64,000 bases of DNA. Origin: Sphagnum magellanicum. Lineage: Eukaryota; Streptophyta; Sphagnopsida; Sphagnales; Sphagnaceae. Each line of letters begins with the position of its first letter. The stretch's first letter is position 1. The position numbers and the translations under genes were made by a program. Shown one piece after another: positions 24,738 to 64,000 of this stretch. Location: the NCBI GenBank assembly GCA_021904315.1, contig CM038921.1, positions 9,640,146 to 9,704,145 of the forward strand, written 5' to 3'. Below the pieces are notes generated by a model. It was not told where the DNA came from, did no database searches, and saw only the letters and a program-made list of their open reading frames with translations.

Positions 24738-25577
24738 TCAGTACGGAGGGGGCCGTTGAGTGTGACTATGACTACTGCCAGCGGCCCACTGGCTTAGAAC
24801 ATCTTGTGTGGACATGTGAGGGTTGCTGAGGTTTGGGTTTTGAGGCACGATGTTGTAGAGCGATTGTAGGGCAGGGTAGGAAGGTTCAAGCTGCTGCTGC
24901 TGCTGCTGCTGCTGCATCGCTCCTTGGGGAACAGCCGCCGAAGTCGCGACCATAGCCAGGCCTTCCTGCTCGTCGTCGAGCGGGAGACGGTCGTAAGTTG
25001 CGCCCAGAAACGAAGCCACGACGATCAGAACCGGGCCGGCTGCCGTGAGAGTGCCCACCACATTGCCACCCAGCACTTGTCCAGCTGCTCCCGCGAGGGA
25101 GACTGTGAATCCGGTAGTGGGCGCAGGGGCTGGCGGGGGTAAGAAGGCGCCTGAGAGCGAGATGATCTCGAACCGGCCATGGAACGTGACAGTCGCACCC
25201 GGCGTAGTGGGTTGTCGCAACGTGACGTTAGAAACGGTTCCGCTGGCGCTCATCACGCACACGCCTCTCTGTCGCCTCCGAGCGAAGGAGGCCACGCTCT
25301 CTCCGACGTCGCACCCTCCGGCCACCTCCAGTACATGCGGCCGCATCGCATTCCCGTTGTCGCGGGTGATGATAATAGGAGGCTTTGGCTTGTTCTTGGA
25401 GCCTGGAGGTCTTCCTCTGGGCTTCCGACCAGCCTCGCCTGGATGAGACCCACTTTCACCCTGCCCCTTGCCTCGCCTCCGTGTGCCTCGTCCTCCGCTG
25501 CTTCCACTCTGCAGCTCCTCGTCAGAAGTGGCGCCCGCTTGCGAGGCCCGAGCTCCCACTTCTTGCACCCCGGCCAT
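24738..25577 (-). CDS. AT-hook motif nuclear-localised (AHL) protein, PPC domain
   Basis: Single-exon ORF of 279 residues encoding a plant AHL DNA-binding protein. An AT-hook at residues 52-67 has the R-G-R-P core followed by GSKNKPKPP (type I). A PPC/DUF296 domain spans about 80-205 and contains the diagnostic GRFEII hexapeptide (134-139). A Q8 run (222-229) and a C-terminal QWAAG follow. AHL proteins bind AT-rich minor groove in the nucleus and form homo- and hetero-trimers through the PPC domain, repressing genes in growth, flowering and hormone pathways. A single type-I hook and the absence of introns fit clade A (the AHL15-29 type of Arabidopsis). I chose the ATG at 25575-25577. The open frame extends 13 codons further, but only to a TTG at 25614-25616, with an in-frame TGA at 25659-25661 and no earlier ATG. 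The stop is TGA at 24738-24740. The coding region is GC-rich against AT-rich surroundings. No disabling change is seen, so it is probably functional. I cannot assign a specific orthologue. Confidence 0.95.
24898..24914 (-). repeat. CAG trinucleotide run encoding poly-Q
   Basis: GCT/CTG repeats on the + strand encode the eight-glutamine run in the AHL protein. It is a length-polymorphism candidate. Confidence 0.8.
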
Positions 25578-36230: not shown

Positions 36231-36930
36231 TGTAGCCGAACAACGGGTGGCAGGACAGTGACTCCATGAGTGTGCAGTTGGTGTGAACACAAACCCCTTG
36301 ATATGGGTAATCTGGCCGCCTCCATTGATGAGTGGCGGCGGATTTCCTCTTCATTAGTTTGAGAGGGAAACTGGATATGCATGGAGTGCATCGGAGAAGG
36401 TGGTCTGTCTGTGTGGGATGTGAGGACAGGAAGATGGCGGCGCGTTTGATGAAGAGTAGCGGCGCCACATTGATTAGGGATGGAGGAAAGCCGTTGGTGA
36501 GAAAAGCGAGGAGGAGGAAACTTGCAAAGAAAGCTAGATCCAGGGATACAGAAGGGAGGATGAGGAGTGGAGGACATTACCAGGTTTTGGCAGAAGAACA
36601 AGGAGCTTAGAGAATGCTAGTCTGGTCGCTCTCTTTTTCCGCTACGATTAGTGACCTGAGAGATTTTCGGCTCCTTGATCTAGAAGAGCTTAATGAAAGT
36701 TCAGGAGCAGGCAATCGAGATAGCAATTGTGAGGAGGCAGAAGAGTGAGTTCTGTACAAGACATTGTGTGTAATGAGAATTATGGAATTTTGCCCCTGAG
36801 ATCCATTTCGTTTGAATTGTATGTTGCATAGTTGTGGAATTGCATCGTGCGCGCTTTGTCAGAACGCGGCAGCGTCGAGAGAGGTCTGGTTAGTGTTGTG
36901 TCCTCTTCGTTTCTCTGGATCCCTCCTTTT
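36231..36930 (+). repeat. 5' LTR, 700 bp
   Basis: Starts TGTAGCCG and ends in a T-run directly before the PBS. Near-identical to 43178-43877. Antisense or sense ORFs of 80-125 codons inside it occur in both LTRs and are not recognised as genes. Confidence 0.9.
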
Positions 36931-36942
36931 TGGTATCAGAGC
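36931..36942 (+). other. Primer-binding site, initiator tRNA-Met type
   Basis: TGGTATCAGAGC is the standard plant PBS complementary to the 3' end of initiator tRNA-Met, placed immediately after the 5' LTR. Confidence 0.95.
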
Positions 36943-37801
36943 AGGTTACGTGGTTGTGGCCAGTATAGAGCTTGTGACAATCGAGGTAATATGAGACGTG
37001 AGGACCATGTCTTCGTCTAGTAGAGAAGAGATCCCTGAGGAGCTCTTGACACAGGAAAATCATGAGCTGAACTTGGTGCGTAGATTCGATTTCTGGACCA
37101 TTCAAAACGGGCCACAAAGGGGAGCCGTGATCTTGCGATTTCTGGGTTTTGGCATAGTTAGAATTGTAGGTATAAATCTTGACCAAGCTCGAGTAAGGGA
37201 CATCGCTGTGGAAGTGTCCCACAGTGGATTCTACACCAGTGCACGAGTATAGGTGAGAGTTACAGATGGAACAAGGGGGTGGGCATGGACCTCAGAACTT
37301 CAAGACAACTTCCACTTCACCTCCTACCTTGCGTAGGGTCGCTCTTGAACTGGCAGAAAGGCAATGCAGTGTCCCAAGGCTGGGGGACATATGGATTCCT
37401 AGATCGGAAGTGTCGCCGAACCATTTTGTGAGGGTGTACATACCTGGAGTAGAAGACTTGTTTCAAGAGGGAGATCGCCTGCTTCGGGTGGAGCATAGCG
37501 GATCCCGATCCCGCCTGATTAGCTAGAGGGTGTGGTTAGGACAAGACGGGCTATGGTGATTTCAACAGCAGTCGACGGATGAGCAACATTTCTCTGCCAT
37601 CCCATCAAACTTTGAACCTCTGAGACCTGTGTATGAAGGAGCTCAGTCAGAGTTCAATGTGTAGCCCAACATCTGTGTTTTTATGATCAGAGTTGAGCGA
37701 CAGCAAATAAAGCAGTTGTTAAGTTTGTACATTTTTGTCTAAAGACTTTGTGTGTGTGAATAGCTTTACAATTTTCTCTGTCTTCATTTCACATCTGCAG
37801 A

Positions 37802-39541
37802 ATGACTAGTTCACAAGGTATGGACGAACTGTTCTGGGGATGCGACCACGAAGACGTCAACGACTGGGCAGAAAGGCTCAGTATGGCTGTTGAGGTGCGG
37901 GACTTCAATGTAGATAAACTTTTTAAGATTGCAAAGCTCAACCTGAGAAGCAAGGCCAAGGATTGGTACCAGAGGTTACAACTAGCCCCAGCCGATTGGG
38001 ATGAACTGAGGACCCTCATCTTGCAGAAGTATGGAGGTGTGGACGCAGATGACATCAGAGTAAAACTTGATGCCATCAAGCAGGAGCCTAGAGAGAGGGT
38101 TCAGAGGTACTTTGAGCGTATGGATAGGTTGTTCCAAAGGGGGAGAATCCCTGATGCCGAATAGCGAAGGAGATTTCTGGCTAGGCTCAGGCGGGAAATT
38201 CGAAAGTTATGTGTTGTCAGAACTTTTGCTGACGTTGAGGAGCTAGTGGGTGCAGCCACTGAGCTCGAGCGAGTGCTGGGCGAACTTGGGGAGACTCCAT
38301 TCGAGCCCCTCAGAGAGGAGCAGGAAGAGGGAGCAGCTGAGGCGTCCATGGAACATCAGGTTGCCGCTTTGAATAATACTCTGATCAATTTTTTTAAGGG
38401 AGGTGTGCCGAACTCTATCCCATCGCCTTCTTCTACCCTGTTTAGAAAATGTCAGGTCTGTAAGGGAAGGGACCATATAGCCACAATGTGTCCAAGGTTA
38501 AATGAGCCACGGCCAAAATGCGCCAAATGTGGCATGCCTCATAGGACAAAAAACTGTGGTGTGAAATGTTCTTTCTGTTCAGGTCTTGGGCATTCAGAAA
38601 ACAGGTGTTGGAAGAAATCCAAGGATGGGAGATCAAATTCTAGAGCGGCGAATTTCCTTGAAGTATTGCTGGATGACGAAGCAGTAACTATACAGCAGCT
38701 CGATAAGTTCTGTGAGAACGAAAATGTGTTCTCATACACTCGCATACCCAGGCGAAGGCAACCGGTTGAATTGCCACCAGCAACTGCTGGACCGTCGACC
38801 GAGGCTGCCGGAGATGGCACTGGCACAAATCGGGAGCATTCCATCAGGTCAAAGATCCTCTCTCATTTCATCAAACGGAAAATCTCCCTAACTCCAATGG
38901 AAACTGTGATGATGATACCAGGAAAATTGGAGCAACTGGAGAATTTAGTAAAGGTTACTAGGAGGAAGAAGGATGCAGAGATTGAAGGTGCTCAGGTATC
39001 AATGGTATCTGCAACACCAACTGTGAGGAGAATCTGTGTCAACAAGACACACAAGAGTAAGACTTTGCATCTGTCAGTCGAGATAAATAACTACCTTGTT
39101 GAGGGATTTGTTGACACTAGCGCGTCCATGTTTGTCATGGCAGCTGCAGTTGTCAGGGAATTGGGTCTGATGCATTTGGTGGTTGGGTCTGAGACATACA
39201 AGACGGCTTCAGGCACCGTGACCCAGGCACTCGGCCGGATCGAAGAAGTGCCAATTAAGGTTGGGGGAGTACAATGCAATATGACCTTCATGGTTGTGGA
39301 CACAGACAACTATGATGTCTTGCTTGGGCTTGATCTGCTGATCAAAATTGGCACGATCGTTGATGTTGAACAGGGGTTAATCCAGGTCAGACGCGGTCCA
39401 GGTACCAATGTAGAAGTGCTACCACTGACCGTGGTGAACTTGATGCAGAGGTCAGCCTCGAACACTGATGTCTGCAATGGAGATGGTGCCATGAAGCATG
39501 CAATTGGTAAATTGAATGCTAAGAACGGATCGTCGCCCTAG
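37802..39541 (+). pseudogene. gag: Gag with zinc knuckles, plus protease; nonsense-interrupted
   Basis: The ATG at 37802 follows an 860-nt leader after the PBS. The first about 170 codons are a retrotransposon Gag capsid domain (AKDWYQRL, DWDELRTLIL, YFERMDRLF). TAG at 38162-38164 cuts it, but the frame continues unchanged. Three zinc knuckles follow at 38450-38610: CX2CX4HX4C, CX2CX3HX4C, CX2CX4HX4C. The nucleocapsid binds RNA during packaging. The protease active site reads VDTSAS (D codon 39113-39115) where the family has D-T/S-G. Gly to Ser, a single G-to-A change, would inactivate it. The downstream LGLDLL segment fits an aspartic protease. A second TAG ends the segment at 39539-39541, still in the same frame as the RT that follows. 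Confidence 0.85.
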
Positions 39542-39565
39542 TATGCGCATGGCACTGGTCAACAA

Positions 39566-41446
39566 ATGATTACACATGAGTCTGGGTCGGAATATGACTC
39601 CAATGAGGATTCCGATGAGGGGTCTCAGCCGGGGATCCAGGTTGAAGGTGAGTCCGAATTTGGGGACACGGAGCTAGAGAACTTGGTGATGATGGAAGGC
39701 CCGCAACAAATCCTGCAGCTGACACTGCAACATCAGGCTGATGATTTTATGAAAGAGGAAATTACAGATGCTGACAACTATGCTGATTGGATTCAATGGG
39801 CTGTTGATGGGGAGCATCACAAGCAAAACCTCCCCGAAGCAGTGAGTGCAACAAGAGAATCTGTGTTGCTACAAGTTCAACGGATAGAGATCACTGCCTT
39901 TGGCAACAACGTCAGGGAGCAAATCATTGATAATGTCAAAGGGGATACAAGGTGGAAGGACATTTGCCAGAAGCTCAGAATCGATCAAGACCTCGACGAA
40001 CTAAAGAGGCCATTGCTTTGGAAGCTTCTGGAGAGGTACCAGGATGTGTTTGCCTGGAACAAAGGAGAATTGGGGTGTTGTACAGTCAGGGAGCACTCGA
40101 TCAACACGCAAGGATTTCCACCTTGTCGGGTAGCTCCTGGACAACTGTCATATTGGGAGGAGGCGAAAGTGAAACGCTAGATAGATGTGTTGGTGGACCT
40201 AAGCAAGATGAGACCAAGTGACTCAGAATATGCCTGTAGGGTGACTTTGCCGGTGAAGAAGGATGGAAGCATGAGGTTCTGTGGGGACTACAGACCACTC
40301 ACTTTGCAGACTAGGAGGGACTCGTTCCCCATGCCCCTAGTTGATGAAGTTATATCCTAGCTGGGGAAGTCGGCTTGGTTCACTGCATTAGATCTGCAGT
40401 CGGGTTTCTGGCAAATTCGCATGGCTCCTGAAGATGTGAAGAAAACTACACTAGTCACTAAGACCGGGCTATATGACTGGACTGTCATGCCCTTTGGTCT
40501 CAAAAATGCCACTAGTACTTTTACCAGAACAATGTCCCTGGTCTTCAAGGAGTTGGGAGGCGAATTCCTGAAGGTGTTTGTGGACGATCTCAATGTCCAC
40601 AGCGAGATTTGGGAGGACCACCTTCAACACCTGGAAGCTGTGTTCGCCAAATTAAGGGAAGTAAACCTGAAACTGAATCCCGGGAAGTGTTGTTTTGCTG
40701 CCAGGAGCATCGCTTTCTTAGGACATGTGGTCAGTAGCAAAGGAACCAGGCCAGATCCTAGTAAAATTAATGTTGTAGTACATTTCCCTGTGCCGAAGAC
40801 AGTCACAGATGTGAGGTCTTTTCTGGGACTGACAGGGTATTATCGAAACTATGTGCAAGGATACGCACGGCTGGCGATTCCACTGTTCGAATTGACAAGG
40901 AAAGAAGTGGCTTTTGTATGGGATTTGGGTTGTCAGGGTGCGTTTGAAGCTCTAAAGGGGGCACTTGTGGCTGCTCCGGTGCTCATTCAACCTGACTTTG
41001 ATAAGCAGTTCTGCCTTGATGTGGATTGGTCACCGAAGGGCGTCGGTGCCATCCTATCTCAAAGAGAAGGTAGGAAGGAGAAAGTTGTGGCATATGCCAG
41101 CAAGGGACTGACATCTGCACAAAAGAAATTCCATCCCATGGAGGGAGAATGTTATGCACTAATATGGGGCATCATGCACTTCCGTCAGTATCTGCATCGC
41201 ACCCATTTCGTTCTTAGGACGGATCACAAGCCACTGGAGTGGTTGGCAACGGTGTCCGATGCATATGGGAGAAGAGGACGTTGGATCGACATGCTCCAGG
41301 ATTTCAATTTCAAGATCCAGCATCGACCAGGCGTGAAACATACTAATGTGGATGCGCTAAGCCGGAATCCCGTAGGAGCTGCTGATGATGACGATTTTGG
41401 TTGTGAAATTCAGGTTTCTCGCGACCAAACCAGGAAACCCAATTGA
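39566..41446 (+). pseudogene. pol: Reverse transcriptase and RNase H, nonsense-interrupted
   Basis: Same frame as gag. An acidic linker leads into RT. FCGDYRPL near 40280, FTALDLQSGFWQI near 40380, PFGLKNA near 40490 and the catalytic FVDD (Asp codons 40583 and 40586) are the RT blocks. FVDD is a tolerated variant of Y/F-x-D-D. RNase H follows with DVDWS near 41020, E in GECYAL near 41145, RTDHK near 41218 and VDALSR near 41350, so its catalytic acids look retained. TAG codons at 40178-40180 and 40358-40360 interrupt the reading; the second lies inside RT. TGA at 41444-41446 ends the frame. RT and RNase H copy element RNA to DNA in cytoplasmic particles. Confidence 0.9.
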
Positions 41447-41591
41447 GCCATCGGGAGGGATATTCTCTATCCAGTGTGGTAAGGAATCTGACTGGCTTGG
41501 CCTGAGGAGACGATCAGGACGACTAAAATAGCACTACGAATGTTGTTTTGGCATCAACCATTGGCGATGGCCGAAAGAGCATTAGCTGTGT

Positions 41592-42998
41592 ATGCTTGAG
41601 GTATTGACTGAGGCAAGTCACGATGAGAAGGATGACTCACCTGGAGATGGAGATGAAGCTATTGTTGGAGAGGAAATCAGGGATTCGGAATCTTCCAAAA
41701 GAAAGCAGATCCTTAGGAGAGGAAAGACCAAATACTATGATAAAAAGCAACAGCTTGAGCTGGTACTAGCTGCCCAGGCGCTGTTGGAAGATGATGGACA
41801 GGGGACTCACGATGCAAGTTCTGGGGGTGAAGAAGCCTATGCTGATGACACAAGCAAAACTGACATTTGGGAGGATGCGGTTTGTATGGGATTACTGAAG
41901 GAAGGCTTCATCCCAGATGCTATCGATCTCCAGGAAAGCAAGAGAGCAAGGAAACGAGCAATGCACTATTGCTGGAAGGACGAAAGGCTCTACTTTAAAG
42001 GGTTGTGCGTGCCCAGACCTGAGGATAGGTTGAAGCTGGTGACACAAATGCACGAAGATTTGGGGCACTTCGGGGAACAAAGAACCTTGGCAGAAATCTA
42101 CTAGAGGTACTTCTGGAACAACCGAACAGAATGTGTAAAGACAATTGTCAAAACATGCCAGCAATGCCAGCTGGTGAAGAGTGAAGGAAGCATTCGCTCT
42201 GGAGATGAGCGTCTGAAGAGCATCCCGATTTGTGACCTGTTCCACCGAATTGCACTCGATATAGCTGGTCCACTACCTGAGACGAAAGCGGGCAATAAGT
42301 ACATTCTGGTGGCCATCGACCACTACTCTAAGTGGTGCGAGGCCAAGGCGGTGGCTGATCATGGGGCCAAGACTGCTGCTAGATTTCTGGAGGATGACCT
42401 AATCTGCAGGTATGGAGTTCCTAAATTTGTGTTGACTGACAATGGCGGGGAGTGGGGTGCAGAATTCGAGGTGATGTGCAGGGATTATGCCATACAGCAT
42501 CAGCGCACTGCACCACAATGGCCCCAGTGCAATGGGATCGCAGAGCGCATGATCAAGACGCTCAAACATGGCATCACTGTTTTGGCAGCCGATCTTACAA
42601 ACGTGAATTGCTAGGATGAGCACTTGGCTAAGGTCCTATTCGGTTACAGGTGTGGAGTTCAGGTAAGCACGAAATTCTCACCTTTCATGGTTCTGACCGG
42701 TCGATCACCACGTCTCAAGGTGGACAACCATTTGAGTGCTTTGACCAATGAGGTTAATGATACCTCCAGTGTGGAAGATACTGCAATCCAATTCCTGGAA
42801 AAGGTACAGCTCATAGCAAGTATACACAAAAATGTCTTGCTCAACGTTGAGCAAGCACAGAAGAAGCAGAAGAACACATATGCCAACCGGCCAGGCAAGC
42901 ATCTGTTTGAAGGTTTGGTGGCTAGGGAGTCGATGGTGAAAATGAAGAAACCAGGTAAGAGGAGAGCTCTTGTTGCGAGTTGGGAAGGCCCCTACTAA
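41592..42998 (+). pseudogene. pol: Integrase, nonsense-interrupted, in a shifted frame
   Basis: Reads in a different frame from RT, so a frameshift or loss lies in 41447-41591. An H-x4-H (HEDLGH, about 42050) and C-x2-C (CQQC, about 42160) form the HHCC zinc domain. The catalytic core has D in ALDIAGPL (about 42255), D in LTDNGGEW (about 42437) and E in NGIAERM (about 42542), all intact. TAG at 42102-42104 (between the zinc-domain halves) and TAG at 42612-42614 break it. The frame ends at TAA 42996-42998, straight after WEGPY, the GPY/F motif of gypsy integrases. No chromodomain follows before the PPT. Integrase joins the DNA copy to the host chromosome. Confidence 0.9.
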
Positions 42999-43157
42999 TT
43001 TGTAGGACATGCTGATGGGAAGAGAAATTTTGATTTTGAAGAAGGTTGCCGGCTTTGCATAGTCCAAGATGCGAATGGTCGACAATGGGAGAGGTCACGA
43101 AGAGACCTACAGATCTATTACGCTCCTTCGGACTGAACTGAGGGACTCAGCTTTTTC

Positions 43158-43170
43158 AAAAAGGGAGGGG
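43158..43170 (+). other. Polypurine tract
   Basis: AAAAAGGGAGGGG, 7 nt upstream of the 3' LTR start. Primes plus-strand DNA synthesis. A PPT usually abuts the LTR, so the 7-nt gap (ttacata) is slightly unusual. Confidence 0.85.
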
Positions 43171-43177
43171 TTACATA

Positions 43178-43877
43178 TGTAGCCGAACAACGGGTGGCAG
43201 GACAGTGACTCCATGAATGTGCAGTTGGTGTGAACACAAACCCCTTGATCTGGGTAATCTGGCCGCCTCCATTGATGAGTGGCGGCGGATTTCCTCTTCA
43301 TTAGTTTGAGAGGGAAACTGGATATGCATGGAGTGCATGGGAGAAGGTGGTCTATCTATGTGGGATGTGAGGACAGGAAGATGGCGGCGCGTTTGATGAA
43401 GAGGAGCGGCGCCACATTGATTAGGGATGGAGGAAAGCCGTTGGTGAGAAAAGTGAGGAGGAGGAAGCTTGCAAAGAAAGTTAGATCCAGGGATACATAA
43501 GGGAGGATGAGGAATGGAGGACATTACCGGGTTTTGGCAGAAGAACAAGGAACTTAGAGAACGCTAGTCTGGTCGCTCTCTTTTTCCGCTGCGATTAGTG
43601 ACCTGAGAGATTTTCGGCTCCTTGATCTAGAAGAACTTAATGAGAGTTTAGGAGCAGGCAATCGAGATAGCAATTGTGAGGAGGCAGAAGAGTGAGTTCT
43701 GTACGAGACATTGTGTGTAATGAAAATTATGGAATTTTGCCCCTGAGATCCATTTCATTTGAATTGTATGTTGCATAGTTGTGGAATTGCATCGTGCGCG
43801 CTCTGTCAGAGCGCGGCAGCATCGGGAGAGGTCTGGTTAATGTTGTGTCCTCTCCGTTTCTCTGGATCCCTCCTTTT
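43178..43877 (+). repeat. 3' LTR, 700 bp
   Basis: Exact length match to the 5' LTR. The next 7 bases (tggttac, 43878-43884) precede the target duplication and are not part of the repeat shared in full with the 5' LTR. Confidence 0.9.
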
Positions 43878-43884
43878 TGGTTAC

Positions 43885-52239: not shown

Positions 52240-52244
52240 TAACA

Positions 52245-53216
52245 TGACACACCCCCAACTCCTTAAAGGATTCAAATGTGAGCCCAAGTAAGAAACATTG
52301 GAAGAGGGAGGAGTCGGGGCACGCTCCCTAACTCACAACACTTTGAGGGGTAAAAGGGCGTGTTGGAGCTCCGGGATGGGACTACGAAGAGTTGACAAGC
52401 TTTACTCACTCACACAGGCCTGCACACAACCCACACAAAGTGGTTAGTACATAGTTGGAGCACCCTTGGTGCTAGGATGAGCCACGGGCAACATGGACAC
52501 ACAAGATTCACCACGGCCCGGACTTGGGGGAAGCCACCACCTTCCCCCTTATAGTATATTATGTGACTAGTTGCAGAGGCTACATCCAAATGGCTTTTCT
52601 CTCCCAGGACTCCCGAGTGGGAGTCCCGAAATCGCGCCAAATGGGACTCCCGCGACTTTGGAACCCCATAATTTTGCAAGCAAACCTTGGATCACAATGC
52701 GATATAAAGCAAAGTTATAGCTCTCGTCAAAAGTTTTCTAATGGTATGTGACATGCCCCCTGCAGCCAAGTAAATCGGGTTGATTACCGACTTTTTATGG
52801 TCGGGAGTCAAATTGCCAATTTGACTTCCGGCCCTTCTTTTGGCCATAACTTGTGTTTCAGATGTCCAAATGAGCAATACGAGCCCATTTTAGACATCTA
52901 CGTTCTAAGATTTTCCCAATGATATAAGGAACGCCACAAGACATTGAGTTTTGACCCCTGCAATTGTTCTCTGAAGTTTTGGGAGTCCACTAGGACTCCA
53001 TCTCCCAAAGTGGGAGTTGCCTTGGGGGTGTGAGAGTTCACTCCCTCATACTCCCTCACACTTTCTAACACTCCCGGGAGTATGTGATGTGACTTTCGGG
53101 CTTCCTTTTGCCTTGACTCCCGAGCTTCTTCTTGCCTTGACTCCCGGGCTTCCTCTTGGCTCGCAACCTTGTAAACCTTTTGCCTTGGTCGCAAGCCCAA
53201 AGCTAGGGTTGCGACA
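52245..53216 (-). mobile_element. Solo LTR A (family 1), 972 bp
   Basis: On the minus strand it starts TGTCGCAACCCTAGC and ends GTGTGTCA, so TG...CA. It is flanked by the perfect 5-bp duplication taaca (52240-52244 and 53217-53221). It is an inverted relative of solo LTRs B and C. It is longer because a 24-bp unit (gaagcccgggagtcaaggca type) is tandemly expanded at about 53092-53160. No internal retrotransposon sequence is attached, which indicates LTR-LTR recombination. Confidence 0.9.
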
Positions 53217-53738
53217 TAACATAAAGGCATTACACATAATGAGAGTCAAAGCTTTTTGTGGAAGCTGATTTTTCAATGATGTTATGGCGCCTTGATGTTA
53301 AGGCCTTGTGGAATGAGCTATATTGTAAACTACTTACCAACTTATAATTTTTTTCCCAAGTTTTTCTTACCATGTAGGTTTTTGGAAGTTTTTGCATGGC
53401 ATTTGTTTGTCCATTGAATGTTTAATCCAAATTGGATTTGTCAATTGACTATTCAAGTCTAATGTGTTTAGCTTCTCAATTAAGTTATTCTAATCATATT
53501 TGTGTTGTTTAGTTCAATTACTTTCAAATTATTTTAAGTTTCTTGACATGGAGTGAACCCATGGTGCAAGAATGTTAGGGTTGCAACTGATGATCTAATG
53601 ATGGCAAGGAAAGGGTTGCATGGTTCCCATTCATCATTTTTCAATGGCATGACATTTTAGTTTAGTGAAATAATTTTTACTAAAATGTTTTAGGCTCTTT
53701 TAATGAACATTGTAATTTATTTGAACATAATGTAGTGG

Positions 53739-54653
53739 TGTCGCAACCCTAGCCTTGGGCTCACGACTAAAGCAAAGACTTGCAAGGTTGCCGCCAAGAG
53801 GGAAGCCTAGGGGTCACATCTCATGCTCCCGAGAGTGCAAAAGAATGTGGGGGAATGAACCCTCACACTCCCAAGTGAACTCCCATTTTGGGAGTTGGAG
53901 TCCCAATGGACTCCCAAATTTTTAAAGGGCGATTACAAGGGTCAAAACCCATTGGATTGAAAAGTTCTTTATATCATTGAAAATCTATTGAAACATAGAT
54001 GTCTAAAATGGGATCGCATGACCCATTTGGACATCTAAAACACAAGTTATGGCCAAAAGAAAGGTCAAAAGTCAAATTGGCAGTTTGACTCCCGACCACT
54101 AAAAGTCAAGAATTGACCTGATTTCCTTGTGTGTAAGTGACATGCGACATACCATTGAAAAGTTCTCAACAAGGGCTATAACTTTGCTTTATACTTCATC
54201 TCAATCAAAAGTCTGCACACAGAGTTATTGGGCCCCAAAGTTGCAAGATTCCCAACTTTCGGAATTTTGGAACTCCCATTTGGGAATCCCGGGACAAAAT
54301 GCCATTTGGATGTGGGCCTCATGGAGAGGCACAAAGTATACTATAAGGGGGAAGGTGGTGGCTTCCCCCAAGTCCGGATTGTGGTGAGTCTTGTGAGTCT
54401 AAATTTGCCCATGGTTTATCCTAGCACCAAAAGTGCTCCAATTATGCACTAATTAACTTGTTATTTGGTCTGTGCAAGTTCGTGTGAATGATTGAACTGC
54501 TTATCAATCTTCCTAATCCCATCCTGGAGCCTTAGCACGCCCCTTTACACCCGAAGTGTTGCGAGCCAAGGAATGTGCCCCAACTTCCTACTTTTCCGAT
54601 GTTTTCATCTTAGACTCACATTTGAGTCTCTTGAAGAGGTTGGGAGTGCGTCA
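53739..54653 (+). mobile_element. Solo LTR B (family 1), 915 bp
   Basis: TGTCGCAACC ... GTGCGTCA, with the perfect duplication agtgg at 53734-53738 and 54654-54658. It contains a TATA-like 'actataaggggg' at about 54340, shared with the other copies and a plausible LTR promoter. Confidence 0.92.
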
Positions 54654-54658
54654 AGTGG

Positions 54659-55251
54659 AGTGATGAGAAAAATAAAAGTACATAATATTTAGTTATTTAC
54701 ATCTTTGAACTATTAAGTTATACTTTATAGTTGTGCGGTAAAAAGTACAAGGTAGGTAGGTAGGTAGTTTTGTAAGATGGTAGGTGGGTAGGTATATAGG
54801 TAGGTCTAAGCTATTGCTTAACAGAGTTAGTAGTTATTTTGACCAATTAGGTAGCATAGGATGTCCATTTGACTACAATGCCATTTTCCATCTTGATTAA
54901 AGATGTCATTTTACTTTGTCCAACTTGATTGGATGTCCCAATTGACTGGTTCAACCATTGGTCAATTTTTTGTCCAACTTGACTAGATGTTCAATTTGAC
55001 ATATAGTCAAATAAGTCATTTTAATCAAGTTTAACATTCAAAAATCAAAAAAAGAAATCTTGTTTTTTCCATTATTCAAATTCACTAAATTATTTTTGAA
55101 ATAAAACAAAATTGATTAATATGCAACTTGTATGGTTTTGGTAAAAAAGGATTAGTTGATTAGGACATTTTTATTGAAATATTTTTTAATCGTTTTAGAT
55201 AGTCACATGTTACATTAGATAATTTTTAATTTAAAAATTGTGACATGGATA
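54659..55251. other. Spacer with (GTAG)n microsatellite
   Basis: Holds GGTAGGTAGGTAG-type repeats at about 54752-54806. No gene. Confidence 0.6.
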
Positions 55252-55256
55252 TATGA

Positions 55257-56173
55257 TGTCACAACCTTAGCCTTGGGTTCGCAACCAAGGCAAAGGCTTG
55301 CAAAAATGTGGGCCAAGAAGGAGGCCCAGGAGGCACATCTTATACTCCCAAGAGTGCAAGAAAATGTGAGAGAATGAACCCTCACACTCCCAAGTGAACT
55401 CCCACTTGGGGAGTTGGAGTCCCAATGGACTCTCAAATCTTCAAAAAGTGATTGCAAGGGTCAAAACCCATTGGATTCAAGATTTTTTTATATCATTGGA
55501 AATCTATTGAAACGTAGATGTCTAAAATGCACTTGCATGACCCATTTGGACATTTGAAACACAAGTTGTGGCCAAAAGAAAAGTCGGGAGTCAAATTGGC
55601 AATTTGATTCCCAACCACTAAAAGTCATGAATCAACCCGATTTCCTTGCGTGCAAGTGGTGTGAAACATACTATTGAAAAGTTGTTGACGAGGGCTACAA
55701 CTTTGCTTCAAACCTCATCTCAATCGGAGGTCTACACAGAAAGTTATCATGCCCCAAAGTTGCGGGATTCCCAACTTTAGGAATTTTGGAACTCCCATTT
55801 GGGAGTCTTGGGACAAAATGCCATTTGGATGTGGGCTTCGTGGAAAGGCACAAAGTATACTATAAGGGGGAAGGTGGTGGCTTCCCTCAAGTCCGGGCCG
55901 TGATGAGCCTTGTGAGTCCGAGTTTGCCCGTGGTTTGTCCTAACACCAAAAGTGTTCCAACTATGCACTAACCAACTTGTTGTTTAGTTTTGTGCAAATC
56001 CATGTGAGTGATTGAAGTGCTTGTCAATCTTCCTAGTCCCATCCCGAAGCTCTAACACGCCCCTCTACCCCCAAAGTGCTACGAGCCAGGGAACGTGCCC
56101 CAACTCCTTGCTTTTCCGTTGTTTTCACTTCAGACTCACCTTTGAGTCTATCAAGGAGCTTGAGGGCGCGTCA
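55257..56173 (+). mobile_element. Solo LTR C (family 1), 917 bp
   Basis: TGTCACAACC ... GCGCGTCA, with the perfect duplication tatga at 55252-55256 and 56174-56178. Aligns end to end with copy B. Confidence 0.92.
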
Positions 56174-56178
56174 TATGA

Positions 56179-57400
56179 AATCCCAAGTTAATATGACATG
56201 GAATAATGCACCACATCATCATACTTCACTAACCCATTCAAATACAAATGTAAAGCATGAAGTTGTTATGTGTGTTTCAATATATACTAGTAAATGCAAT
56301 ATACAACATTTGAATATTGATTTCAATAAGCTCAAACTTCAAAGTGGATGATTCAACTCATGTAAAGATGTTGTTAATTCAATAAATGTGAAAAAATCAC
56401 TAAACCATTCAAATATAATTACAAAATACTTAGTTGCATGTGTTTTGGTATATTATAATAAATGCAAGATGTAATTTTTGAGTAATGATTTTAACATATT
56501 AAAAGTGAATGGTTCAATTCTAATAATTGAAAAGATGTGAAAAAAATCATTAATTCATTTCAACATAAATGTGGGGTTTTAAATTATTACATGTGTTTTA
56601 ATAAATTATGGTAATGGTAAAATGCAACTCCTAAGTAATGGTTTCAACCTAATAAAAGTTGATGGTTTAACTCGTGTACTATGTTGATAGTTGAAGAAAT
56701 GTCAAAAAAATTATCAACCCACTATAATGCATTGTGTAAATAAAGTTAAAAGTTATTTCAATTTCCACATCAACAATTTTAAATAATTAAAATTTTAAAT
56801 AAGGACCAAATTATACTCATAAATGGATAACATAATGAACGTAACAATTATGAACAATATTGACCATTAATTAGTGCAACAAATCACTTGCAAACTTAAG
56901 ATGGCCATGTTGTGCATTCCCATGTCGGTGCTTATAACCATCATTGTTATTACACTCACAACACATAACATAAAAATACTTTGAATGGTACACCACATCC
57001 AAACCAAAAGATTGACTCCCTTGCAACAACATAAAAATCCAAGCCCAAAACATAAAAAATCAAAACACTTGTATAACAAAGAAAACAACAAAGCAGAAAT
57101 TATGCTTTGGAATCTCAAATCACCAAAAATGATTTGAGGTCACACAAGATGGGATTATATCCCATAATAAATATCTTAAACCCCATTCACACATGAATTA
57201 ATTCGAAATTAACTAATTAGTTTAACTAACCCAATTTATCCCTAATTAATTAAAACCTAACTAACAATTAAACTAACACATTTGACAATTATCGTGCGTT
57301 CCTATGTCGGTGCTTATAACCATCATTGTCACCACACTCACAACACATAACATAAAAATACCCTAAATGGTACACGACATCCAAACCATCCCCCTAAACC
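56179..57400. repeat. AT-rich DNA with an ~85-bp direct duplication
   Basis: Segments at about 56917-57004 and 57296-57387 share 'atgtcggtgcttataacc', 'atcattgt', 'cacaacacataacataaa' and 'catccaaacca', 379 bp apart. The copy at 57296 abuts the PHD-finger remnant. The rest of the interval is AT-rich and gene-free. Confidence 0.6.
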
Positions 57401-57413
57401 CTAAACCCTAAAC
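57391..57413. repeat. Three plant telomere-type units (CCCTAAA)3
   Basis: CCCTAAACCCTAAACCCTAAACC lies exactly where the PHD-finger frame of the element loses its last zinc ligands. Confidence 0.9.
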
Positions 57414-57610
57414 CATTTGCCAAGTGGCACTTCTTCCATTAGTGGCATGAGACATCCCATATGCCAACCGCGAGAACACTTGTCACAAATCAACATAGTG
57501 GTGGCTCCTAAAGCTTGCCCACATAACATACATTGTAGGCCAGTTAGAACCATGACTAAAGATGGGTCCATTTGGTCATCCACATTGGGAAGATGACATG
57601 GTGCACAATT
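57413..57610 (-). pseudogene. PHD zinc finger downstream of integrase
   Basis: The minus strand reads CMLCG (about 57520-57533), CDKC, four residues, then WHMGC, then PLGKWF. That is C-x2-C, C-x2-C, x4, H-x2-C and the Trp of a C4HC3 PHD finger. The final C-x2-C after the Trp is missing; the sequence turns into TTTAGGG-type repeat instead. PHD fingers read histone H3 tails, so in an integrase tail it could direct insertion to particular chromatin. That role is inferred. A stop-free 66-codon stretch covers it. Confidence 0.75.
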
Positions 57611-57949
57611 ATGCACATGGTCCTCCCATGTCTAACCATCTCAACCCTCTAATAACAACATTCTAAAAGGTAAAACCTTTTTCATACATAGAATAATACA
57701 TCCTGCAGTCACATCCAAAGTAGTTGATGTTGTTTGATATTGGTAAACATAATCTCCTCATTCAAACCTTTGAATCTAAAGCTAATAACCACCTCCACAT
57801 ATGGTGGCATAATGCAATGTATCCTAATGTTGGGCAATTGCTAGATTTTCCATAGACATGGGCATAACACATCAGAACAAGGTGACTCGTTACCCACATG
57901 CCTAAATCCATACATTAAAATCATCCATGTTGATTATTGCCATTGCATC

Positions 57950-58730
57950 TTGTCAAATTAAGGCTAGTAATTCAGGTTCATGGCCAAACAATAATAAGTA
58001 TGGTGAAAAAGATGAAAGAGAAGATTGCCAATTGAACTTATACCCCATAGCTAGCCATGCTAACTGTAAGTCCCAATCTCAAATATGACCCTTGTGAAAA
58101 CCATATTTTTGCAAACCCTACTTCACCATTTGCACTATCTGCTTAACTAACTTGTCTGCCTCAGGGTGGTCTTGTGAAGTCGTGCGATGATCAATGAATG
58201 TTTTCTCACATAGCTCTTAGAATTCCCCATGGAATTCTATACCTTGGTTAATGAGAACTTCGACTGGAACCCCAAACCTATTAAATACCCTGTCCAAAAA
58301 TGCATATGTTGCTTCTTCATTACTACGATTCGACAATGGAACCAATTCCAACCACTTGGAGAAATGTTCAATCATAACCAAAACATATTAGTTATGTTGA
58401 AGTGTCAAATTCAATGGGCTGGCAAAATCCAAACTCCATTGGTACCCAAGCCCCATAATTGGTAAAGGCTATAGGTGAGGTGTAGCTGCATTGAAAGATG
58501 CCTGAACTCAGTCACACACCATGCACCTAGAAACAAATTGTTGAACTTCCAATTGCATCCTTCGCCACCAATATTATGTCTCGAGCAAACTATATGTCCA
58601 TCGGACCCCAAAATGACCCAACTTTTCATGAACATGCTTCATAAGGCTCTCACGTTGCTCTAAGCAAGGCACAACCTTCACTTGTCCATTTGCCCACATC
58701 TACAGGAAGGAATTACCTTCCCATTTGAAC
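57950..58730 (-). pseudogene. Integrase of the MTase element
   Basis: HEKLGHFG (H-x4-H, 58601-58631) and CMVC (about 58515) form the zinc domain. SLDFASPL (about 58420) keeps the first catalytic Asp. LINQGIEF (about 58240) has Asn for the second Asp, and EADKLVKQIVQ (about 58140) has Lys where the catalytic Glu is expected. HFSKWLELVPL supports a gypsy-type core. Dead by stops and by active-site loss. Confidence 0.85.
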
Positions 58731-58879
58731 CGTTTGGCACTATGCACAACACGGTCCCTTTCCTTGGGTGTTAATCCAATTGGAACTTCACATGCTTACA
58801 AATAGGCAATGATAGGTGCATCATCATAAATATCCAAGGCACCATTGCCCTCCAACTCCATGTCCATATGATGGGGATC

Positions 58880-59690
58880 CCCATCATCCATACTAGTCTA
58901 AAGTACATCCCTAGAACACCCCGATAAGGTACAAAGGTATGCAGAAGCATGCATCCTGATATTGCCTCCAAATCCACATCACCATGCCAACGAACCCCAA
59001 TGGTATCCTCCCTGTTGGAACTTGGGTTCCAACTCAACCCATCAGCATCTCAATTGATCCTACCAAGCTTGTGAATTATATCAAATCTTACTTTTATAGG
59101 ATAAATGCCCACATGGCTAACTTTCCTGTGAGTCGATCTGATTCCATAAGGAATTTCAAAGGTTGGTGATTGGTAATCAAAATGAATGGGCTACCATAAA
59201 GATAACATCAAAATGATGAAACAACCTAAACAATTGCAAGGCACCCGCCCTCATATGAACTTTACTTGGTTTGTGTTTTGTTATTGGACTGACAACATAT
59301 GCCACCACAAATTTTTGACCATCATCATCAAATTGGATAAACATAGCTCCCAACCCTAAAGTACTCCAATCAATGTGTAATTGGAATGGTCATCCTTGAA
59401 TGGGTCGCCTCAAAATGGGGGCTGATGAAAGCCTAGCTTTCAACTCATGAAAACATGTTCTTATGGTTCATCCCAAATGAACTCTTGGTCAATCTACGTT
59501 AGTCGGGTTAAGAGTTTGGTTATGCTACTGAAGCCTTTCACAAACCTTTGGTAGTAATTACACAAGCCCAAAAAAACTCATAATCGACTAACATTTGTTG
59601 GTTGGGCAACCTGTGAAATTGCCTCAACCTTAGCCTTTTGAACCCCCAATCCTCCTAGATAAATCACGTGACCTAGGTACTCTACCTAAA
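58880..59690 (-). pseudogene. RT connection and RNase H of the MTase element
   Basis: GLCNYYQRFVKGFS near 59540 is the post-RT segment. RNase H follows in other frames: DWSTLGLGAMFIQFD near 59350, ITNHQPLKFLMESDRLTGKLAMW near 59130 (usual TDH reads TNH), DADGLSWNPSSNRED near 59020. Several stops and frameshifts. Confidence 0.8.
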
Positions 59691-59699
59691 TATGAAAGA

Positions 59700-60320
59700 A
59701 CTAGCACTTACCTAGATGAAATTTAAGGTTATGTTCCTTAAGTTTTCGAAATGCCTTTCGCAAATGGTGCATATGATCCCCTGGGATTAAGCTAAAAACA
59801 ATGATATCATTAATGTAGCATTTGGCAAAACCAAGACTCGCAACATTCAATCCATGACCCTTTGAAATTCTACAAGGGCATTTTTCAAACCAAATGGCAA
59901 AAACTTCCATTGGTACAAACAATCCTTCCCATGGGAGTCAATTCCCCAAAATTTTGTCTTGACCTTATCACCTTCCCTCAATGGCAACTAATGGTAGTTA
60001 GACCTTAAGACTAAGGTACTAAAAACCTTGGCTTGAACAAGGGCATCAAAGATCTCCTCCAGTAGGGGCATGGCATATTTGTCTAAACGAGTCTGTTTAT
60101 TCATTAGATGATAATCCCCAACATGTGACATTCAATCCAATTGCCAAAAATGTCCTTCTTGGTTGGCATCACTATTGTTGAAGCATATTCACCCCTAGAT
60201 AGTTCCACCAAACCAACATCCAACAACTTTGTGATTCGAGCCTAAACCAAAGCTTTCTCCACCTCACTAAGCCTGTAAGGTCACTTAAAAATTGGATTAT
60301 CATCCTCTAATATGATTTAA
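59700..60320 (-). pseudogene. Reverse transcriptase of the MTase element
   Basis: The minus strand gives LSRGEYAS, VMPTKKD, then after a frameshift DALVQAKVFSTL, LPLREGDKVKT, WKFLPFGLKNA, EFQRVMD, and after a second frameshift GFAKCYINDIIVFS. The catalytic Y-x-D-D reads Y-I-N-D (first Asp to Asn). Stops include TAG and TGA. All RT blocks are recognisable, so the assignment is firm even though the gene is dead. Confidence 0.9.
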
Positions 60321-60324
60321 ACCT

Positions 60325-60735
60325 CTTATCCCCTTAACTAACCCAATTCTTTCAAATTAAAAGCAAAACATCTAATGAAATATCGTATTATCTGTTGTGT
60401 TTCATGCACCTCACCTCTTGTAACTATTGGGCTAATTCTTGGGTCCCATGTTTCTACAATCACTTGTACCTTGGGTTGGGATGATGGAACATCCCCAGCA
60501 CTTGAGGTTGAAGGCATGGCTTATGATTGTTATGCAAAATGTGGAAAGGTGCCATCATGTCCTAACACCCCCACATCACCAATTTCCTATTCCACACCCA
60601 TAAATGTCCCTTAACATCCCTAATCCCATAATTGCCAAGGATTTACTTGTCATGTTATAACATCACCCCCCCTTGCACCGCCATAGTTGATCTAGCAAAA
60701 GGTGCAACAAGTGAAAGATGGGGTGGAATGGGTGG
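60325..60735 (-). pseudogene. Spacer between methyltransferase and RT
   Basis: Presumed linker of the polyprotein, with multiple stops and no recognisable motif. Confidence 0.4.
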
Positions 60736-60739
60736 GTGT

Positions 60740-61720
60740 GATTCACCAATTGTTATGCCACGACCAAGTTGAAAATTCATGTGAGGTAATTGAGATCCAT
60801 AACTTGCCCCAAAATCTGCCTACGGGCTCCTTTGGAAATGCCTAGTATAGTTGTGATGTTGGTGCGGAACCCCATGGCCTATTCCCTTTCATATGCATTG
60901 GGTTTTTCCATACTGGATGAATGGGAGTCCCAAACCATCCCTAGGCCCCCATTCCTAAATGCATGAAAATGTGGAAAACTTAAAAATGTTGGTAGGGCTA
61001 CTTGTGGAAGGCCAACCTTATTGACCATAGCCAAAGGTGGTTAATCATCATGACAAACCGTGCATGAATGGCTTCCTAAATCCAATATGTCATCCACCAA
61101 ACATGTGGATGACCCATGAATGAGCTCATATGCTCATTGCATCACCTATGGTGGTGTTAGGTTAGTCCACATCCATTGGAATTAATGAATTCATGAACCA
61201 ACTGAAGCAACATCCACTTGCATTAGCTCACTGATCCAAGCCCTAACATGTTGCCATCCAACCAAAATAGTTGGCTTAAAATCCCCCAATGGTGGGACAT
61301 TCTCTAACAAATATGCACATGGGTGCATATGTGATTGTTGCAAATGTTGCACAACATGAATCAATTCCCAATATAAACCTGACCTAGGATTGGAAAGTCC
61401 TCGACCTATACTTGCATGTGAAAGACCTTAGCACGGCCATCCAAAAATGACCAAATCAATTGGCCCAATCCTTGCCAAATTTAACACCCCCAGCAAAGTG
61501 ATGTTACTTAGTAAGGAACGTTGATAACCTTGTATGGCTGATGTTGGTAACAAATGGGGATACCTTTGTTGCAACATCATGACATGTTGCATGGAGGTTT
61601 ATCTAGCTTGTGGATCCTTCTCCACATAATGGTATCTCCAAACTAGGATGCCCAATTGTAGATTTGCAACTAATCCAAAACTAATGCCTCTAAACAACTC
61701 AAGTAGGCATATCCCATCCT
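60740..61720 (-). pseudogene. DNMT3-like C5 cytosine-DNA methyltransferase domain inside the retroelement
   Basis: One continuous minus-strand frame (no frameshift) gives the C5-MTase motifs in unpermuted order. Motif I is LLELFRGISFGL (Phe codon 61692-61694; AdoMet loop, Arg in place of the usual Gly/Asp). Motif II is YVEKD. Motif IV is GWPC with the catalytic Cys codon at 61431-61433, followed by TAA (61428-61430) where Q/N is normal, then GLSHA. Motif VI is LLENV (61296-61304 encodes ENV). A motif VIII-like WMWTNL lies at about 61160. The C-terminal block has MGFRT, SKGARRQILGQ (about 60800-60880), matching the ERVFGF and RLLGRSW region of DNMT3. The unpermuted order argues against plant DRM, and the short length argues against MET1/CMT. 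It would methylate cytosine in DNA. About ten nonsense codons kill it, including 61599, 61428, 61191, 61182 and 61146. Confidence 0.85.
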
Positions 61721-61967
61721 TGGGAATATCCCATTGAATAACCCTAGTATCCAATGGGTTTAAACCTAGAGGCCCATTACCAAGGTTCACAAGTGATTGA
61801 GGGTTTGATGACGATAGAATGTGCCAAGCCTGATGAATATAATGGCCGGCCGATGTTTGGAGTTCAATCAATGTGCCCCATGGTGGCCTAGGATCTAATG
61901 GATAAACTTGGATGATTGGCATCCCATGTGGCCCTGACATTGCCAATTCACCATTTGGAAGTGCATC

Positions 61968-62237
61968 CTAGTCATGGATGTTACCTTCCAACAACTCAAG
62001 TCCATGTGGAAGGCTTGAAAATCTAGCCAACATAGTTGGTTTGTTAAATTTTCCTACTTGCCCCCCAATGAATGTCACTAGTAATGAAGCCTTGTGGCTA
62101 ACTCCTGTTTGCCAGCTTGGATGGTAATATGTAGTTTCTTCCCAAAAATCAATGGTCACCCCTATGGGATATAACACCACACCTCCAACCAACACATCAT
62201 AGGATGTAACATGAATGACCATTGCTCGGGTTGGCAT
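61968..62237 (-). pseudogene. Uncharacterised conserved-looking segment between protease and MTase
   Basis: 89 codons without a stop, reading VTSYDVLVGG, LYPIGVTIDFWEE and FIGGQVGKFNKP. It has the composition of a folded protein region and unusually few lesions for this element. I do not recognise a named domain. It may extend the protease fold or form an N-terminal cap of the methyltransferase. Confidence 0.5.
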
Positions 62238-62312
62238 AGTAATGTAGTTTGTTGGTTTATTGGGATTAATCTAAATCACAATTTCTTACTTGGTTAACCT
62301 CCATGCTTTCTC

Positions 62313-62579
62313 TTACCCACCCATGGATGTCAAAATTTGATATGGGCATGGGTCAAGATCAGCATCAATCAATCCAAGACCATCAACAATAGTTTTGCCC
62401 AACATCAATGGTTGAATACCAAAATCTAACAACACCTTAAGGGGTCGATACCGGCGTGCCAATGCCCCCTTCAATTGAACCATTCCTTCTTCATTGTGCA
62501 CAACCACAACCCTAGGAATAACACTAGTTCGATCAATGGGTAGCCATGATGGAAGGTCATGAAGTTTGGCCATAACCAC
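62313..62579 (-). pseudogene. Retroviral-type aspartic protease of the MTase element
   Basis: Reads KVLLDFGIQPLMLGK. The family active site is D-S/T-G-A; here the Ser/Thr codon is Phe (62421-62423), with the Asp codon at 62424-62426. The downstream GLGLIDADL and TSMGG fit the flap and second half of a short pepsin-like retropepsin. It would cleave the polyprotein; this copy is inactive. Confidence 0.65.
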
Positions 62580-62785
62580 ATGCCAAAATTCAAGTTAAAC
62601 CTTGGACACCTCTATGCAATTGGCTTCAAAATTGGATGGGGAATTGTAAGAGTCACAAAAATGTCCTCCAACCTAACCATCACTTGTGGTGTTCCACCAT
62701 TTTCACATAATGTGGCCATTAATCGAAACACAACTATTAGTTAAATAGTTGAAATGGTTAATGATTCAACATAAAACAATGGTGC

Positions 62786-63606
62786 CTAACACATTACTTT
62801 GGCCACCCCCATCAAACTTGTGGGTGCCTTAGACCTAGGAATAGAACTAGGCATTTTCCTTGACACCGCAATGGGATTGGGAATGGTGTTTGTCAACACA
62901 AATGATCGTGGAACCCGCATTTGGTGTTGAGCCTCACCACACTGAGGATTCAATCTCTCATCAACACCTTGTGGTTCTAGCACCCATGTACTAGCTCCTG
63001 TCACTAGTGCAATTGTGGAAATCATCTTATTAGGATTTGGAACCATAACATAGTTTCCATCATCTATTGCCCATGGGTCATGATTTCTTGACATATGTGG
63101 CATCATCTCATTTGGTGCCACTGATCCTAAAAAAATGTTAACAAATAGGAGATCTACTCAAGTGCGAACATAAATCTTTATTAAAAGGAAACTACAACAT
63201 GATGCTCATAACACGAAACATAACATCAAGAACTCCTCAAGGTTCTTGTCACATGAAATACACAAACTTGTGTAATGAAAAAAAAAAAAAAACCAAACCA
63301 TCAACACCAAGGTATTTAACTAGAAAACCAAACCACAAATAACCAAACTAATATAAGTAAAGAAAGTAATTCAACCTTGTGAAAGTAACCTAGTTACTTT
63401 CCTACTCTAGTAACTAATGAAACCTAACTAGTTGAGCTTGAATTCTCAACAAAAACTAGCTCCACAAAAGAATCCTTGATCTGCATTTGACCACATGATT
63501 GGTCATATTCCCTATCCTCAGCTTTCCTTGGCCTAGATGTAATATATTTCACTTGGGCCACCATGCTTGTGACTAGGGCCTCCAACCGTGTAAACCTAGC
63601 CTCCAT
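62786..63606 (-). pseudogene. Gag-to-protease linker region
   Basis: Two open pieces (63424-63606 and 62786-63121) continue the element on the same strand. The first has a heptad-like MEARFTRLEALVTSMVAQV that looks like a short coiled coil. The second holds VPRSFVLTN and no known motif. No function assigned. Confidence 0.4.
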
Positions 63607-64000
63607 GGTGTTAAGTTGGCCTTGAATTAGCTTGGTGGTTAGCCTTTTGTTGGTTACACCTTTCTTCTTCCAACCCTTCCCAAAACCTTGGCCCTCATTG
63701 GCATTGGTGTTCTATGATTGGCCTTGTTGTAATTCTAGGAAAAATGTGAAGCAAATATCAACATCATGCCCATATGCATGATAATGGGAACATGGTTGGC
63801 TAGGATTAAAATTGGAAGTTATGGCTTATGGTGGATTGGGACAATTATTTTTCTTACGAGGCCCACCACACCTCCAACATTTGTCTTCTCCACCTTGTTC
63901 CATTGAATAGGATGTGGAACCACCACTTGAGTCTGGTTTGGCCTTCTTGGCCTTGTGTGGTGTGGCCTTGGTGGGCTGACTTTGTGATTCTTGGTTTGAT
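63600..64000 (-). pseudogene. Gag C-terminal zinc fingers of the MTase element (partial)
   Basis: The minus strand reads CWRCGG..K.NNC at about 63845-63885, a CX2CX3(R)X4C knuckle with Arg where the His ligand belongs. About 25 residues later comes CSHYHAYGHDVDIC (about 63750-63795), a second knuckle with Tyr at the expected fourth-position ligand. The frame hits TAG near 63714. Both finger losses are single-base changes. The true N-terminus is off the right edge. Confidence 0.6.

Follow-up and report, generated by a model that had tools for sequence, protein, structure and literature searches.

The minus strand of a 64,000-nucleotide stretch of the Sphagnum magellanicum genome (hereafter the window) encodes, near 61 kb, a region resembling a C5 cytosine methyltransferase, and this locus raises the question of whether the enzyme belongs to a retrotransposon or to the host. 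Cytosine methylation silences retrotransposons, which makes an element encoding its own de novo methylase a paradox. The original prediction, made from the letters of the window, was that a DNMT3-like methyltransferase is embedded in a land-plant Ty3/gypsy polyprotein. The best explanation, with a probability of roughly 80%, is that the locus is a dead member of a Ty3/gypsy family of bryophytes in which pol includes a DNMT3-type methyltransferase, placed between protease and reverse transcriptase, and ends in a PHD finger behind the integrase; this explanation includes a putative role in live copies, namely cDNA methylation and PHD-guided integration.

The decayed element comprises, in minus-strand order, gag zinc knuckles, protease, DNMT3-type methyltransferase, reverse transcriptase, RNase H, integrase and a PHD finger (Table 1). 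The gag-PR-RT-RH-IN order of Ty3/gypsy elements is present according to Pfam and tblastn, and the methyltransferase lies on the same strand as the flanking protease and reverse transcriptase, where it had been placed originally. The profile searches proposed at that time matched DNA_methylase, RVT_1, rve and PHD. The protease and gag-linker pieces of the window had no Pfam match, while both align with proteins of relatives by tblastn; in relative P0013, Asp_protease_2 was matched (E = 0.0012, 20 bits) below the cut-off of 24.3. The PHD profile was among the checks suggested earlier, but a PHD finger had no part in the earlier reasoning. The last CxxC pair of this finger is unreadable in the window copy, and residues 336-602 of the Marchantia protein P0078 align with positions 58213-57413 at 58% identity (8e-101), reaching into the finger. 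No chromodomain was matched in the integrase and PHD pieces of the window, nor anywhere in P0078, a PHD finger being found there instead. The 5' end of the element lies beyond base 64000 of the window, and Rfam at gathering scores returned nothing in the window.

Table 1. Features of the methyltransferase-bearing element in the window.
Feature	Position	Strand	Evidence
gag nucleocapsid region, zinc-knuckle (CCHC-like) part	63721..63879	-	tblastn, Marchantia P0045 residues 345-400, 36% identity, E 5.9e-6
gag-to-protease linker region	62705..63064	-	tblastn, P0010 residues 94-225, 33% identity, 58.9 bits
Aspartic protease region	62118..62585	-	tblastn, Sphagnum P0003 residues 139-295, 1.9e-28
DNMT3-type C5 cytosine methyltransferase domain, single frame with internal stops	60750..61718	-	Pfam DNA_methylase 8.6e-8; tblastn P0010
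Motif I, LELFRGIS	61703-61680	-	Read from translated frame
Motif IV Pro-Cys (WPC), catalytic cysteine	61431..61436 (Cys codon 61433-61431)	-	Translated frame
Motif VI, ENV	61296..61304	-	Translated frame
VIII-like motif, GS...WTN	61199-61161	-	Translated frame
Motifs IX/X, AMGF...RRQILGQVMDLN	60789..60878	-	Family profile to DNMT3A 245-280, weak alone (10.7 bits)
Reverse transcriptase, best preserved part; onward with frame changes to ~59.5 kb	59841..60187	-	RVT_1 2.5e-8; Marchantia P0031, 66% over 94 aa
RNase H	59097..59452	-	RT_RNaseH_2 1.2e-13; P0031, 62-65% across two frames
Integrase, H2C2 zinc finger and rve core	57956..58753	-	Integrase_H2C2 1.4e-13; rve 9.4e-11
PHD finger, end of pol	57410..57532	-	PHD 2.7e-7; P0078 alignment

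The Pfam DNA_methylase profile matched the methyltransferase piece with 32.4 bits (cut-off 22), covering mainly the motif IV-VI part, and the whole domain was recovered with relatives as queries. Residues 259-870 of P0010 align by tblastn with protease and methyltransferase in one frame (62585-60750, 43% identity, 473 bits, E = 1.2e-146); the maximum score with 20 mononucleotide shuffles of 57400-64000 was 24.3 bits. Inspection of the three minus-strand frames of 56-64 kb located motifs I, IV and VI, a VIII-like stretch and motifs IX/X in this order in a single frame at 61.72-60.75 kb, so that the domain is not permuted, as the original prediction had it. Compared with the extent stated there, the domain begins a little upstream of the stated end, at about 61718.

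A search of the window domain against 5.8 billion proteins yielded five matches, and a second search, for which four of these five were aligned, yielded 294, of which 120 were listed. All 15 rows bearing an organism name among the 120 of 294 matches listed are bryophytes, namely Marchantia polymorpha (9), Calypogeia fissa (3), Sphagnum troendelagicum (2) and S. tenellum (1); the name Klebsormidium does not occur among these 120, and all listed proteins are 1035 aa or shorter. In Marchantia, Calypogeia and Sphagnum relatives the methyltransferase is fused to the protease, and it is joined to gag and/or protease in P0003, P0010, P0045 and P0043, the metagenome protein P0010 being of the gag/protease-DNMT type without reverse transcriptase. 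Protease, DNA_methylase, RVT_1 and RNase H are united in the single Marchantia protein P0031 (Mp_2g26090), in which both termini of the methyltransferase are missing. Another Marchantia protein, P0078 (Mp_7g09570), contains methyltransferase pieces, the integrase tail and the PHD finger; it has no catalytic part, and from there to the integrase tail only the methyltransferase end is present. The named Marchantia, Calypogeia and Sphagnum proteins, including these two, are gene models, which may hold predicted introns, splice around stops or join pieces.

These proteins bear on the reading in which the methyltransferase comes from the host, as a DNMT3 gene or pseudogene that adjoins, or is interrupted by, an unrelated gypsy element. 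Mosses do possess a host DNMT3, as described in the text of PMC6453930, but the same order recurs in Marchantia, Calypogeia and Sphagnum proteins with the methyltransferase fused to protease, reverse transcriptase or PHD finger, and in the window protease and methyltransferase share one frame. The host plant DNMT3 of Physcomitrium is likewise a non-permuted DNMT3-type methyltransferase; it differs, as far as its description in PMC6453930 allows comparison, by a C-terminal DUF3444, whereas none of DUF3444, PWWP and ADD was matched at E 0.05 in the seven element relatives scanned, some of which are truncated proteins. A neighbouring host gene is considered extremely improbable and was rejected on account of the fused proteins of the relatives. 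The DNA_methylase profile matches the window and the relatives place the methyltransferase inside a Ty3/gypsy polyprotein, P0031 joining it with reverse transcriptase and RNase H and P0078 with the integrase tail and PHD finger. The presence in land plants that had been proposed also holds, the host of the window being a moss, within or close to Sphagnum, as judged from the AHL gene described below; the related copies in peat mosses and liverworts show that the methyltransferase was a lasting part of the element.

The type of the enzyme was assessed with a profile of ten family members, including the window, which was searched against all PDB chains. DNMT3A was found first (2.5e-18, 69.4 bits), followed by DNMT3B (4e-17), and at lower significance by plant DRM (4onj, 2.2e-9), HaeIII (4e-8), DRM2 (2e-6) and HhaI (5.9e-6); none of the 57 matched PDB sequences (E of 10 or less) is named DNMT1, MET1 or CMT. 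The alignment with DNMT3A runs in linear order. With DRM, the best stretch places motifs I-VI on residues 227-351 of a 357-residue chain, towards its C terminus, which is the pattern that a permuted enzyme should give. An AlphaFold2 model of P0006, produced with 33 alignment rows, is modest (mean pLDDT 58.1, compared with 44-50 for the other four models; pTM 0.63), 162 of its 472 residues having a pLDDT of 70-90, mostly within the domain's N-terminal half; no residue exceeds 90. In a Foldseek search with this model, rows 1-50 of 120 (E of 0.001 or less) were all DNMT3 entries, with TM by target of up to 0.72, rmsd of 5-8 and 19-22% identity. Profile and predicted fold together indicate that the domain is of the non-permuted DNMT3 type, in agreement with the initial assignment.

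Capture of a bacterial or viral methyltransferase instead of DNMT3 is the reading to which the scores of prokaryotic and phage enzymes with the family profile (57.5, 52.7 and 40.8 bits) lend some weight, being not far under the 69.4 bits of DNMT3A. These prokaryotic enzymes had been picked for similarity from whole collections, and DNMT3A and DNMT3B are ahead of them both by sequence profile and by fold. The DNMT3 type is favoured over a bacterial one, the margin in sequence being not wide, and a bacterial or viral source is regarded as improbable. The 42-row tree described below does not decide between these origins because it is rooted on three outgroup rows. The phage and bacterial enzymes, L001 from viral_contigs and L002 and L003 from genome_contigs, were tried as relatives of the element and rejected, since their match to the family is only partial (in L001 mainly motifs IV-VI, and motif X weakly); they were taken as ordinary methyltransferases. 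Single-protein scans of viral_contigs confirmed nothing.

Conservation was counted in 122 family proteins, the denominators being the proteins that cover each site. The catalytic cysteine is retained in 96 of 97 and its proline in 94 of 97, the motif I phenylalanine in 83 of 84 and the motif VI asparagine in 77 of 78. The motif VI glutamate is found in 68/78 proteins (replaced in 10/78) and the first arginine of motif VIII in 45/71 (replaced in 26/71), and because of these replacements part of the family is probably inactive. Six open-frame members of 472-961 aa were compared (P0006, P0010, P0011, P0013, P0014 and P0019). The domains of the other five diverge from that of P0010 by 28-36%, and such divergence with frames kept open suggests that the protein has been under selection.

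A maximum-likelihood tree of 42 rows was built from the window, 38 of the 122 family proteins (15 with an organism name and 23 long or divergent ones, cut to profile columns) and three outgroup rows on which it was rooted (human DNMT3A segments and two prokaryote/phage rows). L003 was not included, P0004 was left out as partly in another frame against the family, and alignment A1 was set aside as dominated by long gag ends. The window groups with P0001 and P0112 (100/100), apart from a 24-row set (89/99) in which the named proteins of Sphagnum, Marchantia and Calypogeia are found. The nearest relative, P0001, looks damaged too and has an unusual letter make-up. Each of the three named groups is split from the other two by one branch (100/99, 100/100 and 100/100), further rows fall inside the Sphagnum set, and the deep forks among subclades lack resolution. 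With one group for each host, the tree is compatible with vertical descent in bryophytes; horizontal transfer may be an alternative origin of this grouping. A divergent methyltransferase subclade (100/97) is formed by P0005, P0093 and P0103 from ENA contigs.

The window copy itself is a pseudogene, because the frame of protease and methyltransferase contains 14 stops in 613 codons. One of these directly follows the catalytic cysteine codon, so that a complete enzyme is not encoded, and the reverse transcriptase, RNase H and integrase are read in shifting frames with stops. The CpG observed/expected ratio of the element is 0.20, compared with a median of 0.41 for 254 other segments of equal length, overlapping one another, elsewhere in the window, of which 4 are equally low and 13 have as much TpG/CpA. 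The low CpG indicates decay, is consistent with prolonged methylation and deamination, and is not peculiar to the element.

Because this copy is dead, self-methylation can be proposed only for relatives with open frames. In live copies the most likely role of the enzyme would be the methylation of the element's own new DNA. The protease would free the methyltransferase along with the other pol products, and the freed enzyme could act on the cDNA of the element, either inside the particle or ahead of integration; the methylated cDNA would then resemble, or be tolerated as, host DNA. The PHD finger may read histone H3 tails and steer the integrase by analogy with chromoviruses, whose chromodomains are thought to steer integration. 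Both kinds of element have a module of histone-reader type after the integrase at the end of pol, but chromoviruses carry a chromodomain, whereas the moss element has a PHD finger in its place and, in addition, a methyltransferase between protease and reverse transcriptase. A broader scenario, put forward tentatively and at somewhat less than even odds, is that of an ancient bryophyte gypsy family, inherited since before the moss-liverwort split, whose single polyprotein would write chromatin marks through DNMT3 and read them through the PHD finger, so that the element would premark its own cDNA and choose the chromatin into which it integrates.

Instead of methylating DNA, the retained domain could also act on RNA, or serve pol as a structural module or by binding nucleic acids. 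For a LINE enzyme from a dinoflagellate that was inactive on DNA in yeast, RNA methylation has been raised in the main text of de Mendoza et al. 2018 (PMC5890265). Such a role is rated unlikely here, given that the domain appears to be of the DNMT3 type and that the catalytic Pro-Cys and the asparagine of ENV are kept in nearly all relatives covering them. Methylation of DNA by live copies is preferred, and with a genetically tractable liverwort among the hosts the role of a retrotransposon methylase is open to direct test.

The closest system described is KnitGypsy-Dnmt3 of Klebsormidium nitens, in which, according to the main text of PMC5890265, a DNMT3 is encoded in a gypsy Pol with Ka/Ks under 0.2, purifying selection being reported for this element of the alga. 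It resembles the bryophyte family in its non-permuted DNMT3 domain within the gypsy Pol ORF and in its streptophyte host, but differs in that this host is an alga and its repeats are called DIRS-like, the comparison being based on the description in the text. SymbioDIRS-Dnmt3 of Symbiodinium is likewise a retroelement-borne DNMT3, for which de novo CG methylation was shown by its authors, but this dinoflagellate DIRS element is of another element class (PMC5890265). For DIRS elements the same authors proposed methylation of cDNA upon reverse transcription, and they also discussed whether methylation keeps the element from being recognised as foreign DNA, shields it from deaminases, influences the insertion site or benefits the host by slowing the spread (PMC5890265). 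The main text of that paper contains none of the terms moss, Physcomitrella, PHD, Selaginella and gymnosperm, and bryophytes are mentioned in one section of it, only for host-type DNMT3. PHD and methyltransferase are absent from the main text of a survey of plant LTR retrotransposons (PMC6317226), and no publication on DNMT-bearing retrotransposons in bryophytes was found among the papers listed from open-licence PMC text. The occurrence of DNMT3 in a gypsy Pol is already published for K. nitens, while neither the family in bryophytes nor a PHD finger behind the integrase was found in print; with the Sphagnum, Marchantia and Calypogeia copies, the arrangement, described from one alga and from dinoflagellates, extends to land plants.

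Other repeats are present in the window. Just downstream of the PHD finger is a direct repeat of 95 bases (56912-57006 and 57294-57388, 91%). The region 52242-56174 contains three related copies of a ~0.9 kb repeat, two of them direct, 84% alike and 1.5 kb apart, and the third inverted (76%). They are possibly the LTRs of another element; an assignment as the LTR of the DNMT-bearing element was tried and could not be demonstrated. A much younger gypsy element occupies 36231-43881 on the plus strand; its LTRs (36231-36934 and 43178-43881) are 96% identical, and its frames for gag and pol are long. Its reverse transcriptase region is 37% identical to that of Marchantia P0031, and none of six family proteins matched a methyltransferase in it by tblastn.

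The window also contains an intact AHL gene (AT-hook and PPC domain) at 24741-25577 on the minus strand, in a single open frame. Among the best 120 of 3708 matches to its product, proteins from JGI, NCBI and ENA contigs are at 98-99%, those of Sphagnum jensenii and S. compactum at 87%, a match that may be to a paralogue, AHL genes forming a family, and those of Physcomitrium patens at 72% or less; proteins of liverworts, lycophytes, ferns and seed plants come next.
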